From assembly GCA_009839745.1 (NCBI GenBank), contig VXPE01000054.1, positions 52,075 through 98,274 of the forward strand: a stretch of DNA of 46,200 nt, given 5' to 3'. The position numbers were made by a program, and so were the translations under genes. Shown here one piece after another: positions 24,049 to 30,109 of the stretch. The DNA comes from Candidatus Poribacteria bacterium. GTDB lineage: Bacteria > Poribacteria > WGA-4E > WGA-3G. The stretch's first letter is position 1; the number at the start of each line of letters is the position of its first letter. Under the pieces are notes generated by a model. The model was not told the DNA's origin. It saw only the letters and a program-made list of their open reading frames with translations, and did not search any database.

Positions 24049-25230
24049 CTAAACTGCTTCGGTGAGTGCGTCCTGAATTTCAGTGATAACCCCTTGATCG
24101 GTTTCAACAGTGAGTCGCGTTTGCAATACCCGCTTGGCGGTTTTGCCTCCGATTTTTCCCAACGCCCAAGCAGCATGACCGCGGATTAAAGGTTCGTGAT
24201 CCGCTAATGCGCCTTCCAGTGCCGGAACAGCACGCCGTGCGCCCCAATTACCGATGGCAACAAGGACATTTCGCAAGAACCCTCGACGTTTCGCACGTTT
24301 GATTGGACTCCCTTTGAATCGTTGACTAAATTCCTGTTGCGTCATACCAACAAGCGAGAGTAACTCGGGAGCGAGGTTTCCATCGCGCGGCTGAAATGCC
24401 CGTTCGGTTGTCGGCACCGCCTTACTGTTCCAGGGACAGACTTCTTGGCAGATGTCGCAGCCAAAAATTAAATTCCCGACCTTGGGGCGCAGTGCCTTCG
24501 GTATACTCCCCTTCAACTCGATTGTCAGATAAGAGATACAGAGCCGAGCATCGAGCAGATTCGGTTCAACAATTGCGTCCGTTGGGCACGCTTCAATACA
24601 ACGCGTACAAGTGCCACAACTTCCACGCAGATCCGGCAGGTTGTATTCGAAGGCAACATCAATGAGGACCTCCGCCAGAAAATACCAAGAACCGGAACGC
24701 CAATGAATCAAGTTCGTATTTTTACCGATCCATCCGATGCCTGCTTTCTGTGCGTACTCCCTTTCAATAATAGGCGCGGTATCAACACATACGCGGGTTC
24801 GTAATTCAGTTTCAGCCGTCTGTTTAATAAAAGTAACAAGTTTTAAAAGGCGTTCACGAATAAGTTCGTGATAATCATCACCCCACGCGTAGCGGGAGAT
24901 CTGGCCCCGTCCGGGATCTTGTGTCAGTGCCTCTGATGGATCAAGTGTATAATAATTCATGGCGAGACTAATAACAGATTTCGCCTCTGCCAACAATCGC
25001 CGGACATCTGTCTTAAGCGGGAGATGCTTTTCAAGATAACGCATCTCCCCGGCGTACCCGCTTTCTATCCACTGCTGATACCGTGTGATCGTTTCACTGT
25101 GCGCTGCGGGTGTAATTCCGACGAGTTCAAATCCAAGTTCGTTGGCGCGCGCATGAATTTGCTTTTTAATTTTTCCTTGCGGATTTTTAATTTTTCCTTG
25201 CGGATCGGTGAGGTGAGTTTGGATTTTCAA
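24049..25230 (-). CDS. queG: Epoxyqueuosine reductase
   Basis: 393 residues; reduces epoxyqueuosine to queuosine in tRNA, using cobalamin and two [4Fe-4S] clusters. The clusters are in CGTCTRCIEACPTDAI and CDICQEVCPWN. The N-terminal cobalamin domain (ELVGITPAAH, then DTAPIIEREYAQKAGIGWIGKNTN) is intact. The C-terminal ~60 residues form a HEAT-like extension (ALGKIGG). Oddity: no ATG lies near the family start. The frame opens at TTG 25230, and the first ~23 residues, including NPQGKIK repeated, are translated from a family A repeat with an in-frame 21-bp tandem duplication. The true start may be the TTG or a rare codon within the repeat. Confidence 0.9.
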   Translation of the reverse strand: MKIQTHLTDPQGKIKNPQGKIKKQIHARANELGFELVGITPAAHSETITRYQQWIESGYAGEMRYLEKHLPLKTDVRRLLAEAKSVISLAMNYYTLDPSEALTQDPGRGQISRYAWGDDYHELIRERLLKLVTFIKQTAETELRTRVCVDTAPIIEREYAQKAGIGWIGKNTNLIHWRSGSWYFLAEVLIDVAFEYNLPDLRGSCGTCTRCIEACPTDAIVEPNLLDARLCISYLTIELKGSIPKALRPKVGNLIFGCDICQEVCPWNSKAVPTTERAFQPRDGNLAPELLSLVGMTQQEFSQRFKGSPIKRAKRRGFLRNVLVAIGNWGARRAVPALEGALADHEPLIRGHAAWALGKIGGKTAKRVLQTRLTVETDQGVITEIQDALTEAV

Positions 25231-25308
25231 GCACCTCTCCGTATATCCGCCCTCCGCTACGCTTACGGGCTACAGGTTTGGGTTAGTCAAGCAGAATAAA
25301 TTAAAAAG
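25163..25308. repeat. Family A repeat overlapping the queG start and the pheA stop
   Basis: A full copy: tttttaatttttccttgcgg is present twice in tandem (25163-25183 and 25184-25204, 21-bp period). It then has cggtgaggtgagtttgg, tccgccctccgctacgcttacgggct, and a right end gcagaataaattaaaaag. The left end is translated as the N-terminus of queG. The right end supplies the stop codon of pheA (ACT-TTT-TAA). Confidence 0.85.
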
Positions 25309-26368
25309 TTCCGCGTGGATAGGATCCGAGAACATTGACGTTCCGACACAATTCCTCAAGTTGCTCAATCGCGATGATGACGCGTTCTTCAGCAATATGC
25401 CCTTCCATCTCAGTAAAGAAGATATATTCCCAGGGTTTGGCTCGGGACGGCAAAGATTCTAAATAACTCAGATTCAATTGTGCCTGTTCTAAAATACCCA
25501 AGGCTTGGTGTAGTGCGCCAACCTTGTCCGGAATTGCGAAAAACAGGGCAGTCCGATCATGTCCGCTCGGATCTGGAATATGCTTTCCGATGACAAAGAA
25601 GCGGGTTGTGTTATCAGGTTCATCCATAATCGAGTTTGCGATGATTGGAACCTCATAAAGTTCACTTGCGAGTTCACTTGCAATGGCAGCTGCTGACGGC
25701 TCTTGCGCGGCGCGCTGTGCTGCCTCCGATGTACTCACAACCTCGATCTGCTCAGCACCACTGAGATGCTGCCTTAACCATGTCTTACATTGTGCGAAAG
25801 GTTGTGGATGTGAATAGATACACCGAACTTCCGCGAGCGGTGACCTTGATAAAAGGTGCTGTTTTATCGGTTGGAATGTCTCTGCACAAATCCACAACGG
25901 TGTCCGTTGAAAGCGTTCTAAAACATCACGAACAGTGCCGTGCGCTGAATTTTCAATAGCCACCACCCCGTAGTCCGCCCTCCCCGCTTCAACCTCAGTA
26001 AAAATTTCAACCTGTGGGTGAACAGGGATAAACTCAGTTGATGTACCGAAATGAGAGAGAGCCGCCAAGTGCCCGAAACTGCCAACCGGTCCGAGGAACG
26101 CCACTCTCTCCAGATCTTGCAAGGAACGGGACGCAGATAAAATCTCGGTCCAGATCGTTTCAAGTGCGGCTTCAGGGAACTTCCCCTGATTCCGTTTCTT
26201 CAAACGTTCAATAATCTGCTTCTGCCGATGCGGAACATAGACCTCCGCAATGCCTGTTTCAGCCTTCACGGCACCGACCCGCTTGGAAATCTCAGCGCGC
26301 TTCTGTAGCAATCCTAAAATTTGGTCGTCAATCTCGTTAATCTGGTCTCGGTACTTTGTTAAATCCAA
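25301..26368 (-). CDS. pheA: Bifunctional chorismate mutase / prephenate dehydratase
   Basis: 355 residues with three domains in order: AroQ-type chorismate mutase (about 1-85, QINEIDDQILGLLQKRAEI), prephenate dehydratase (about 92-275, FLGPVGSFGHLAA, then ENSAHGTVRDVLE and the catalytic TTRFFVIG), and a C-terminal ACT domain (about 280-355, KVGALHQAL and ESLPSRAKPWEYIFF) for phenylalanine feedback. It converts chorismate to phenylpyruvate for phenylalanine. The start is TTG 26368, placed after the shared leader (AAGGAAAATTTAAAAA). It lies upstream of queG on the same strand, separated by a repeat. Confidence 0.93.
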   Translation of the reverse strand: MDLTKYRDQINEIDDQILGLLQKRAEISKRVGAVKAETGIAEVYVPHRQKQIIERLKKRNQGKFPEAALETIWTEILSASRSLQDLERVAFLGPVGSFGHLAALSHFGTSTEFIPVHPQVEIFTEVEAGRADYGVVAIENSAHGTVRDVLERFQRTPLWICAETFQPIKQHLLSRSPLAEVRCIYSHPQPFAQCKTWLRQHLSGAEQIEVVSTSEAAQRAAQEPSAAAIASELASELYEVPIIANSIMDEPDNTTRFFVIGKHIPDPSGHDRTALFFAIPDKVGALHQALGILEQAQLNLSYLESLPSRAKPWEYIFFTEMEGHIAEERVIIAIEQLEELCRNVNVLGSYPRGTF

Positions 26369-26520
26369 TTTTTAAATTTTCCTTATGGATAGATATCGCG
26401 ATCTGTGCAATAACGGTTTCCGTGTTCGAGGCGCCCGCGCCGATGTTGCGGGCTTGTGCCTTCTCACAGATATTACAAAACCCGCCCTCCATTACATGAC
26501 GGGCTATATGAACAAAATTT
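26369..26520. repeat. Family A repeat upstream of pheA
   Basis: Starts at the pheA start codon with tttaaattttccttatgg and carries acccgccctccattacatgacgggct near 26475-26505. It also contains gttgcgggcttgtgcc. Confidence 0.65.
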
Positions 26521-26600
26521 ATCAATCATCAGTTATCAGTTATCAGTCACGAGAGGTAACTTCTAACCGAAAACTGACGACTGACCGTTATTCAGTTAGC
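26521..26600. repeat. Dispersed repeat, family B (TTATCAGTTATCAG type)
   Basis: Carries atcagttatcagttatcagt at the left and accgaaaactgacgactgacc at the right. It matches 33452-33562 at both ends and resembles the insert in the coding region at 31741-31808. Its right end reaches the stop of the small DUF5069-like gene. Confidence 0.7.
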
Positions 26601-26841
26601 TATCCAATTTCTTCATAGCTGCAATCATTTCCTCGTCTGAGGGGTTATTTTTCACCATTTCAGTAAAGGCCTCAGCACTTATCTCGTGTTCCTCCAGGAA
26701 CATCTTATCCTGCGGTCACGGGTAGATATACTCACCGAGGATCCCCTGCAGTTTTGCATTGGCTTTATCACTGATTCTGGCTAACCATGGTATATCTCCA
26801 ATAATCATGTCTCGGTGCCGTGGTTTCCAATCGAGAGCCAT
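26596..26841 (-). CDS. DUF5069-like small protein with in-frame TGA (candidate selenoprotein)
   Basis: 81 codons plus TAA. Codons 1-41 read MALDWKPRHRDMIIGDIPWL, ARISDKANAKLQGILGEYIYP; then TGA at codon 42 (26718-26716); then PQDKMFLEEHEISAEAFTEM and on to KKLDS. This resembles DUF5069 proteins, which as I recall have a conserved Cys-Pro-x-Asp just after the GEYIY-like motif, so the TGA stands where Cys is expected. Homology-like sequence continues in the same frame on both sides. The Shine-Dalgarno AAAGGAGGTGA is essentially perfect. A 6-bp hairpin lies 13 nt after the TGA (loop 19 nt after). I interpret TGA as selenocysteine; a nonsense mutation is the alternative. Function of the family unknown; a redox role would fit. 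Confidence 0.65.
26687..26702 (-). promoter_or_regulatory. SECIS-like hairpin
   Basis: In the mRNA: UGUUCC, loop UGGA, GGAACA; six perfect pairs. The loop starts 19 nt after the UGA and has G at its second position. From memory, bacterial SECIS elements need a 4-16 bp stem, a small loop with G in the first two positions, and 16-37 nt between UGA and the loop; this meets all three. Confidence 0.55.
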
Positions 26842-26883
26842 CTGTTTCACCTCCTTTAATAGTTTTCAGTAAATCAACGGTAT

Positions 26884-26941: not shown

Positions 26942-29900
26942 CTATTCAGCCAGTTGACGTAAAGTTTCCTCCAAAAGCCGCTGATACCGTCCATATTCTG
27001 TCCAATTACCAGCACGTAGTGCATCCTGGCCTGCATTGAAATAACGGTTCGCCTGTTCAATGAGTCCTGGCAATGAGGTCTGGTCTGTGCTAATATCGGT
27101 TCCCACGTCAATGTCGTCAGTTGTTTCTGTTGCAGCGGTGGTTTGGAACCCTGTTCCCTGTCCGAACATCTTGACGAGTGCCTCCTCAAGAGTTTCACCC
27201 CATACGACTTCGTTCCCGTATCCGATGACGACGCGCCGTAATTCAGGAATAGCGGTTTTTTCATCTTCGGATTGTATATAGATAGGCTCAACATAAAGCA
27301 GAGAGTTATTCATCGGCAGAATCAACAGATTTCCACGTAAGACGCGGGACCCCTGCGTATTCCAGAGGCTAATCTGCTGTGAAATTTCTGGTTCTTGGCT
27401 AATAAAATTCTCCACCTGCATCGGTCCAGCGATCTGTTTCCCTTTCGGGAACCGGTAAACAAGGAGCTGCCCATATTGGGGCAAATCACATCGGGCAGCG
27501 AGCCATGCAGTAAGATTCGGTTTGTTGAGCGGTGTGAACGGCAACATTAACATGAATTCCGATTGCTCCTGCCCCGGCAGTCTGATAACGACATAATAGG
27601 GTTCAACGGGTTGCCCATTTGCCCCGGAACTTTGGGGGACCTGCTGCGGTGCGAAAGGACTCCTCGGTTGCGGAGGCGCGGAAGCCTGTCGCGTTTGGGC
27701 ATCTGTATTGTCATAAAGCTCCCTGCCGATCTCCCATTTATCTTCACCTGCGTAGAAGGTTACGGGATCTTTCATGTGGTAATCCTGATAAACGCGGGCT
27801 TGGATAAGGAACATGGAGGTCGGGTATCGGATATGCGCCTTTAGCTCCTCCGGCATCTCCTCAAACGACTTGAAAAGGTTCGGGAAAATCCGTCGATAAC
27901 ATTCTGCGATTGGATCCTGCTCCCGCTCCATAACGTAAAAATCGACAGTGCCATCGTAAGCATCAACGACGACTTTAACAGAGTTTCGGATGTAGTTCCC
28001 CCACGGTTCAGCGTTTTGCTGTGTATCAGCAATTTGCCGCCTTCTCTCGCTGACGAATTCTCGCATGGAAACGGAATAAGGGTACCGGTGCGTGATCGTA
28101 TAGGCATCAATCATCCAAACCAATCTACCGTTATGGATAATAATGTAAGGGTCTCCGTCGTATCGTAAGAAGGGTGCGATTTTTTGGATCCGGTTTTTGA
28201 TGTTTCGTTCGTAGAGGATCCGACTTGTCGGTGAAATTTCACCGGGTAGCACGAAGTTAATTTCGTTATCGAACTTAAGCATGTATACCATTTTACGCCA
28301 GAAAGAGTTCAGTTGGACCCCGCCCTTTCCTTGATAGGCGTATTCGGCGTATTGTTGACCTTCCTGCGGATAGTCAAACTCAAGTCCTTGACTGCGTTCC
28401 GGATGAACGATGACATAGCGATCCGTGCGTTCACCATAATAGATACGGGGTCCCGGTGTTTCGGTGAACCGATGTTGCCACTGCTCGTCATAGTCAATTG
28501 GTGGCAATCCCTGAATGTACATGTTAGGTTTGCCATTATCAATTTCGTTGACGGGACTCACAACGGCACCGTAGCCGTGCGTGTAGGTATAGGTCTGCTT
28601 ATACCAGTCATTTCTAATTTCGATTGGGAGTTCGTTGATATTGAGTTCCCGTCCAGAGAGCATTACCTGCCGAATCTCACCATCGACGACATAGCGATCG
28701 ATATCGACATCGTTAAAATCATACTGTGTCCGCAATTCTTGGAGTTGTCGGAAAGTTCTGCGCAAGGGTCGCCAATCCCAGAGACGAATGCTATTGAAAA
28801 CAGAAGCGTTTTCGGGACTTCTTATATCATCATAACTGAGTTGCTCTGTCAACGGGTATTCTTCTTCCGTCACAGTATTCTCAGCCAAACCATACGCCTG
28901 TAGCGTTGCTTTGATGTTGTAGTTGATATAGTCCGCCTCTAACACCTGTTTTCTGGGTTCAACCTGCCATCTCTGTATAGCGACCGGATAGACCTGTCCA
29001 AGGAATCCGGCAATCAGAAACACGGCGAATCCACCAAAAGCGAGGGTGTTGCGTTTTAAGAAGATACTAATGATGAAAATGATGGCACACAGGATTGTCA
29101 GTCCAATCAAGAAATATAAAATAGGAAGTCGCGCCTTCATTGCGGCGTATCCACCACCCCCTCGGACGACATCGTTTGTCGTGTAGAGGAGGTCAAACAT
29201 AGCAAACCGGTAGTTCCATGCTCGGAAGAGGAGTGTCAACCCCACAAGCGTGAACAAATGTGCTTTCACATTGAAAGGTGGACGGAACCGAAACTGACTG
29301 GTATCTCCCGTGATTAGCCCGTGAAAAAAGTAGATGACGATCGCAAATATCGTCACCAACATAAAGATACCGAAAAGCGTTCCGCACACATAGCGTTCCG
29401 CCGGCATTCTGAAAACGTAATAGGCGACATCCTTATCAAAGATAGGATCGCGCGCGGGAGATGTCAAGAATGCTTTCTGTCCGGGTTCAATTTGAACAGG
29501 CGTATTCAAACGGATAGCATCATTCAAAATAGCTTCAACCCGTGCGTCCTGATTTGTCCCGTTTACCTGTAAGCTTATCTGATCTCCGACCCTTATATTT
29601 TTCGCTTGGAGTTCGAGTTGCGAGACAGGAATTTCGGCAGAATTGAGACTTTCTTCTACAACAATAGGCGTAGCGGCAGGGAAAGTGAGACTCTCAGCAT
29701 TGGCATAGCGTAGATAGATTTCCCACCGGTCGCTGGCTGCGTAGCCCATCATGATACTAAAAAGGACGGCAAGCAGTGTGAGTGCCCCGTAAATCATTTT
29801 TCGCGTATCACCGGGATTTTCTGCGCCGCCCCCCATGAAATCCGCACCGCCCATAAAAGCCGGACTGAGATGTGCGGGTGTGAACCGATAGATTAAGGCA

Positions 29901-30109
29901 ATGTTGGTTAGCAGGATCGCTAAATAGCAAACGCCAACAATTGCACCGATCCAGATTTTTGTTGTGAGAATTTTAGTGTAAACGCTGAAATAGTTCACTA
30001 CCTCAAACCATAGGAAGTCGGGATAAAGGTTAACCCAGATGGCACCTAATCCGCCAACGACAGCGAGAATAGCGACAGTGATAATAAAGCGTTTGGTTCG
30101 TGAATCCAT
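26942..30109 (-). CDS. UPF0182 family large membrane protein
   Basis: 1055 residues, in the usual range of the UPF0182/COG1615 family, whose function is unknown. The N-terminal ~390 residues hold about seven transmembrane helices (for example FIITVAILAVVGGLGAIWV and LFGIFMLVTIFAIVIYFF). A large region outside the membrane follows, with the family's conserved text around ETPGPRIYYGERTDRYVIV and FAPFLRYDGDPYIIIHNGRL-like blocks. A Pro/Gln-rich linker (about 800-825) and a C-terminal coiled helix (LIEQANRYFNAGQDALRAGN) end the protein. ATG 30109 follows the shared leader (CCGCAAGGAATAATTAAAAA). The downstream TGA-containing gene may be read in the same transcript. Confidence 0.88.
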   Translation of the reverse strand: MDSRTKRFIITVAILAVVGGLGAIWVNLYPDFLWFEVVNYFSVYTKILTTKIWIGAIVGVCYLAILLTNIALIYRFTPAHLSPAFMGGADFMGGGAENPGDTRKMIYGALTLLAVLFSIMMGYAASDRWEIYLRYANAESLTFPAATPIVVEESLNSAEIPVSQLELQAKNIRVGDQISLQVNGTNQDARVEAILNDAIRLNTPVQIEPGQKAFLTSPARDPIFDKDVAYYVFRMPAERYVCGTLFGIFMLVTIFAIVIYFFHGLITGDTSQFRFRPPFNVKAHLFTLVGLTLLFRAWNYRFAMFDLLYTTNDVVRGGGGYAAMKARLPILYFLIGLTILCAIIFIISIFLKRNTLAFGGFAVFLIAGFLGQVYPVAIQRWQVEPRKQVLEADYINYNIKATLQAYGLAENTVTEEEYPLTEQLSYDDIRSPENASVFNSIRLWDWRPLRRTFRQLQELRTQYDFNDVDIDRYVVDGEIRQVMLSGRELNINELPIEIRNDWYKQTYTYTHGYGAVVSPVNEIDNGKPNMYIQGLPPIDYDEQWQHRFTETPGPRIYYGERTDRYVIVHPERSQGLEFDYPQEGQQYAEYAYQGKGGVQLNSFWRKMVYMLKFDNEINFVLPGEISPTSRILYERNIKNRIQKIAPFLRYDGDPYIIIHNGRLVWMIDAYTITHRYPYSVSMREFVSERRRQIADTQQNAEPWGNYIRNSVKVVVDAYDGTVDFYVMEREQDPIAECYRRIFPNLFKSFEEMPEELKAHIRYPTSMFLIQARVYQDYHMKDPVTFYAGEDKWEIGRELYDNTDAQTRQASAPPQPRSPFAPQQVPQSSGANGQPVEPYYVVIRLPGQEQSEFMLMLPFTPLNKPNLTAWLAARCDLPQYGQLLVYRFPKGKQIAGPMQVENFISQEPEISQQISLWNTQGSRVLRGNLLILPMNNSLLYVEPIYIQSEDEKTAIPELRRVVIGYGNEVVWGETLEEALVKMFGQGTGFQTTAATETTDDIDVGTDISTDQTSLPGLIEQANRYFNAGQDALRAGNWTEYGRYQRLLEETLRQLAE

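Follow-up and report, generated by a model that had tools for sequence, protein, structure and literature searches.

Comparison of homologous genes across two bacterial phyla indicates that a short gene on the minus strand of a 46,200-nucleotide stretch of Candidatus Poribacteria bacterium DNA (assembly GCA_009839745.1, contig VXPE01000054.1, positions 52,075 to 98,274; this whole stretch is hereafter the window) almost certainly encodes a selenoprotein, with selenocysteine (Sec) inserted at the UGA of codon 42. With the TGA read through, positions 26841-26596 of the window translate as MALDWKPRHRDMIIGDIPWLARISDKANAKLQGILGEYIYP-TGA-PQDKMFLEEHEISAEAFTEMVKNNPSDEEMIAAMKKLDS-TAA, and the product belongs to DUF5069 (Pfam PF16798), a domain family of unknown function. 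The gene and its predicted elements, including the putative selenocysteine insertion sequence (SECIS), are as follows:

26596..26841, minus strand: predicted gene for a selenoprotein of the short DUF5069 type; 81 codons, of which codon 42 is TGA, and a TAA stop; assigned by Pfam DUF5069 (E 2e-14), by homologues and by purifying selection on either side of the TGA
26716..26718, minus strand: predicted selenocysteine codon, an in-frame TGA at residue 42 in the context Y-P-U-P; this column holds only TGA or cysteine (Cys) codons in 119 sequences
26687..26702, minus strand: predicted bacterial SECIS hairpin UGUUCC-UGGA-GGAACA; supported by codons 48-51 without synonymous change and by covariation; every Cys form has it lost or damaged
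26847..26857, minus strand: Shine-Dalgarno sequence AAAGGAGGTGA, kept in Poribacteria homologues

An earlier note on this DNA had described the 81-codon frame with its single internal TGA (26718-26716), a Shine-Dalgarno sequence ahead of it (found here at 26857-26847) and a hairpin (26702-26687) whose loop lies 19 nt past the UGA with G in second place; it had held that the bacterial SECIS rules (stem, loop G, 16-37 nt) are satisfied and had read the TGA as selenocysteine. Translation of the window and the published limits (PMC13188914) bear out these descriptions, and the selenocysteine reading is supported by the decoding machinery, a column restricted to TGA and Cys, the conservation of the hairpin and purifying selection downstream. 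The tests that the note had named as able to refute it, namely Cys in the TGA column of an alignment to DUF5069, the same TGA in related genomes without decay of the downstream sequence, and selA, selB, selC and selD in the same genome, likewise came out in favor of this reading.

The weight of the evidence rests on the agreement between the two phyla and on the Cys forms. After removal of known duplicates, Poribacteria, Latescibacterota and a small number of other groups contribute 119 homologues; codon 42 is TGA in 103 of these, Cys (TGT/TGC) in 16 and anything else in none, a distribution far beyond chance, with the proviso that the Poribacteria sequences are closely related and the counts are not independent. 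The homologues span two phyla, the most distant sharing about 47% identity with the latescibacterial query. A scan limited to one genome per species returned 76 relatives, 72 with TGA and four with Cys at codon 42. Within the phylum of the window, 78 genomes contain a strong match, 72 in the TGA form and six with a stop-free frame (TGC or TGT), and within the phylum of the Latescibacterota genome G027 the gene is present in 43 of 64 genomes, 36 of them with TGA and seven without a stop; the fetched sequences of the latter encode Cys.

When U is replaced by Cys, the protein matches the Pfam DUF5069 profile at 54.3 bits, above the gathering cut-off of 27 bits, over profile positions 4-75 of 133, and the genomic DNA with the TGA read through matches it at 49 bits. 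The full 133-position domain is not present, its C-terminal half being absent here and likewise in all short orthologues. NCBIfam, whose models include many for selenoproteins, has none that matches at E up to 10. The structure 3omd from Leptospirillum rubarum in the Protein Data Bank (PDB) aligns at E 6e-11 and carries Cys-Pro at the Sec-Pro position. The statement in the earlier note that DUF5069 proteins have Cys-Pro at this place holds for 3omd, for the majority of the short orthologues and for certain single-domain proteins of greater length (e.g., L111, L112 and L104), and fails for the three-domain paralogues, which read Y..G-x-S-G-x-D with Gly/Ser in place of Cys. Judged from the aligned sequences, Cys at this site belongs to some DUF5069 subfamilies only and is not universal. 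In part of Latescibacterota, moreover, the residue following Sec is Gly rather than Pro. A DUF5069 search of the genome of the window recovers the same locus, with one internal TGA, together with a three-domain protein of 428 aa (L094; G000:C52:68051-69298, minus strand) that is present in most Poribacteria and has no chalcogen at the site.

The predicted SECIS hairpin starts 13 nt after the UGA, lies at a UGA-to-loop distance of 19 nt, and has the loop UGGA and a stem of 6 bp in the window and 7 bp in many relatives; it lies within the loop, stem and spacing limits published for bacterial SECIS elements, which call for a loop-G hairpin 16-37 nt downstream (PMC13188914). Codons 48-51 (TTC CTG GAG GAA) are the only single-codon columns of the TGA forms among 57 degenerate, well-conserved columns, and synonymous difference in sliding windows is 0 at these codons, as against mostly 0.5-0.85 elsewhere. 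Below this conserved core the stem continues, and covariation is seen in that lower part: in 92 distinct sequences, pair 18-31 occurs as G-C (77), C-G (14) or A-U (1) and is never mismatched, and most have U-A, A-U, G-U or G-C at pair 17-32. Not one of the 92 departs from UGGA in the loop. In the diverse alignment, 87.8% of cells are paired, compared with 74.3% after shuffling. The covariation score of 0.297 compares with 0.102 for shuffled alignments and 0.107 for the best slid version; the first alignment gave similar values. In three genomes (L166-L168), residue 51 has changed from Glu to Gly, yet a G-U pair and G-C pairs lower in the stem preserve the hairpin, the top pair being open in L166, and in L143 one additional codon precedes the hairpin on its 5' side, so that the spacing can shift by 3 nt. 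At gathering thresholds, no Rfam family matched the window, as expected given that general bacterial SECIS elements do not form one family.

The Cys forms complement this picture, with the stem broken or the loop altered in all 16 of them. A lax test (at least four of five upper pairs plus GG in the loop) passes one, L133, though its C21 pair is broken. In the latescibacterial Cys form L157, codon 42 is TGT and all seven stem pairs are present, with UACA in the loop instead of UGGA; to judge from its sequence, this hairpin looks like a fossil SECIS, the pattern expected if Cys had recently replaced Sec and the loop G were no longer needed. The Cys orthologues, which come from Limnochordia, part of Latescibacterota and one family-level group of Poribacteria, resemble the TGA form in length and conserved residues and, in Poribacteria, in having the same pheA-like neighbor, and differ from it in the TGC or TGT codon and the lost or damaged hairpin. 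On a protein tree from which the trait columns were left out, the Sec/Cys distribution requires four changes.

The genome of the window encodes a complete Sec system: selA (C50, 600 bits), selB (C22, 346 bits), selC, the tRNA-Sec gene, adjoining selB (78 bits, anticodon tca, i.e., UCA), and selD (C117, 360 bits). The last has an in-frame TGA after CAG, as in Sec-containing SelD and, going by this sequence, is itself a selenoprotein gene. The selD frame (L100; G000:C117:9834-10757) reads KCAG-TGA-ASKL; after it comes a possible hairpin, GCUC-CGGGU-GAGC, whose second loop base is G and which is not the minimum-energy fold of that stretch. On a wider scale, selB scores above the curated cut-off in 33 of the 35 TGA-form genomes searched, with fragments in one more, and is present in three of four Cys-form genomes; tRNA-Sec was found in 73 of 85 genomes of the window's phylum.

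Several observations weigh against the proposed reading. The isolated hairpin of the window has a folding energy of -6.4 kcal/mol, short of the published limit of -7.5 (PMC13188914), with relatives ranging from -5.7 to -10.8 and the value varying with the stretch folded, and single-sequence folding prefers another structure of lower energy (z -1.2). A strict tRNA-Sec search gave no match in eight TGA-bearing draft genomes, and selB was not found in G036, a genome that holds one TGA-form contig. The tree has few columns, and its well-supported branches force only one independent Sec/Cys pair. Finally, the gene neighborhoods differ between the phyla; examined for a pathway link, they yielded none valid across phyla and do not single out a function. 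With respect to the folding energy, the hairpin becomes dominant, with pairing probability of the inner pairs above 0.99, when the bases immediately following the UGA are left out of the fold, as if covered by the ribosome, and it is the comparison between genomes, not single-sequence energy, by which we consider the hairpin to be established. As for G036, the TGA-bearing contig (L081; JAJDWH010000054.1), labeled Alphaproteobacteria, carries the gene and neighbors that are about 90-95% identical to those of Latescibacterota; it looks latescibacterial and is probably misbinned. With few well-supported forks, the direction and number of the Sec/Cys changes are uncertain.

An AlphaFold model built on 29 homologues (predicted local distance difference test score, pLDDT, 86) is all-helical, with four helices at residues 20-32, 43-51, 56-65 and 69-80, and places Sec42 just ahead of the second of these. 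The model superimposes on 3omd with Z 12.3 and a root-mean-square deviation of 1.7 over 79 residues. In a Foldseek search of the PDB, 3omd was the only credible match, so that the fold suggests no function; finding no others does not indicate that the fold is new. The protein of the window has no Cys besides Sec42, which excludes a dithiol mechanism of the CxxU or UxxC type, and neither a thioredoxin-like fold nor either motif is seen.

Two genes flank the selenoprotein gene in the window:

25301..26368, minus strand: downstream gene, chorismate mutase / prephenate dehydratase / ACT (pheA-like), adjoining the gene in most Poribacteria loci including Cys forms
26942..30109, minus strand: upstream gene for a UPF0182 protein (context only)

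UPF0182, pheA-like and queG genes are the neighbors in most Poribacteria loci. Three Poribacteria loci (L140-L142) have a thioredoxin reductase-glutaredoxin fusion upstream, named from sequence motifs. Part of Latescibacterota has a kinase-like gene upstream and a gene for an NAD-binding oxidoreductase downstream; this set recurs at L072, L080, L158-L164 and other loci, with argC further downstream in several, and the kinase-like neighbor of 345 aa has no Pfam match despite phosphotransferase-like motifs. Limnochordia loci have rubrerythrin and a kinase-like gene, and two other Latescibacterota loci have an rsmD-like gene, named from motifs alone.

We propose that SelB, together with Sec-tRNA(UCA), would decode the UGA at codon 42, having been recruited by the stem-loop that starts 13 nt downstream (loop UGGA), and that the product would be an 81-residue, mostly helical, one-domain protein of the short DUF5069 type, with Sec42 as its sole chalcogen of the Cys/Sec type. 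The likeliest use of Sec42 would then be as a redox-active or nucleophilic selenolate, sharpened by its position at a helix N-terminus. Because the protein has no resolving Cys, recycling by an outside thiol system may be envisaged, and a one-chalcogen mechanism is the simplest guess. The earlier note had called the product a small redox protein, of which the small Sec-containing protein stands and the redox part stays conditional: simple thiol/peroxide redox chemistry, as opposed to other selenolate chemistry or metal binding, appears to fall somewhat short of an even chance.

The alternative that survives best accepts the selenoprotein and makes Sec a metal ligand or a structural or regulatory site instead of a redox or nucleophilic catalyst. 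This could be suggested by the paralogues that lack Cys here, so that the fold does without it, by the absence of a second Cys, and by the variety of genomic contexts (pheA, rsmD-like, kinase-like plus FNR-like). On the other side, a Sec that gives way to nothing but Cys usually marks a reactive chalcogen, the residue directly precedes a helix in the model, and redox genes (the thioredoxin reductase-glutaredoxin fusion, the NAD-binding oxidoreductase and rubrerythrin) are among the neighbors; on balance, we regard a non-catalytic Sec as possible but rather unlikely.

Alternatives that deny selenocysteine at codon 42 fare far worse. Insertion of another amino acid (Trp, Cys or Gly), through a changed code or near-cognate readthrough, draws on the fact that the inserted residue cannot be named from comparison alone. 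Nevertheless, Cys is the sole replacement residue, the genome has a complete Sec system, and the loop-G hairpin with its correct spacing is conserved only alongside TGA; furthermore, Trp in the same protein is encoded by TGG (W19 in all homologues) and four long frames of the window terminate with TGA, making this alternative highly improbable. It is no more credible that the TGA is a true stop, as in the standard code table and at the end of several long frames of the window, leaving a 41-residue peptide followed by a decaying pseudogene or a separate small gene, given that Pfam, 3omd and the structural model all align across the site, that 103 homologues retain the frame and the 16 Cys forms have it uninterrupted, and that, in the TGA forms of Poribacteria, the ratio of nonsynonymous to synonymous substitution rates (dN/dS) is about 0.05 before the TGA and, after it, 0.07 without the hairpin codons and 0.10 with them, a purifying selection that excludes a 41-aa peptide with a decaying tail.

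The window also contains two repeats. A short tandem TTATCAG array of four copies (window 26519-26547) is situated just 3' of the selenoprotein gene, and similar AACCAGT repeats follow the gene of a relative (L069). A perfect 21-bp tandem duplication (two copies, window 25163-25205) at the 5' end of the queG-like frame accounts for the repeated PQGKIKN/K in its translation.

The list of open reading frames of the window contains none of at least 60 aa in the frame of the selenoprotein gene, so that a plain gene caller would miss it, as the earlier note had anticipated for standard annotation. The gene is probably missing from the protein sets of most of these genomes, because standard annotation drops it.

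The same note's view that the protein had not been described agrees with the sources searched. DUF5069 is absent from the table of 119 prokaryotic selenoprotein families and subfamilies in a 2026 inventory (PMC13188914), and the open literature, with subscription journals and preprints outside the search, yielded no paper on DUF5069/PF16798 and none pairing a selenoprotein with Poribacteria. The gene resembles DUF5069 and 3omd in sequence and modeled fold, with the Cys of 3omd at the Sec column, and differs from them as a short form with Sec in place of Cys; no Sec form appeared in the sources searched. It also shares the decoding logic of known bacterial selenoprotein families, i.e., an in-frame UGA, a loop-G hairpin 16-37 nt downstream, Cys homologues and SelA/B/C/D. 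Most characterized families, in contrast, have a thioredoxin-like fold (PMC13188914), whereas the DUF5069 model contains only helices, has a single Sec and lacks CxxU/UxxC. Against the sources searched, the family is new, though of a well-known kind. In our assessment, DUF5069 is very probably a new selenoprotein family that reaches almost the whole phylum Poribacteria, is widespread in Latescibacterota and combines an all-helical, non-thioredoxin fold with a lone Sec at a helix start and, perhaps, undescribed selenoprotein chemistry.

The present analysis adds a family to the list of about 119, in the poorly cultured phyla Poribacteria (many from sponges) and Latescibacterota. The pairs of TGA and Cys forms, among them the Cys form with a preserved stem and a mutated loop, represent a clean example of exchange of Sec and Cys with the matching change in the SECIS element. 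Positions where evolution pays for Sec are usually chemically active, and these findings give a domain of unknown function one precise residue to probe.
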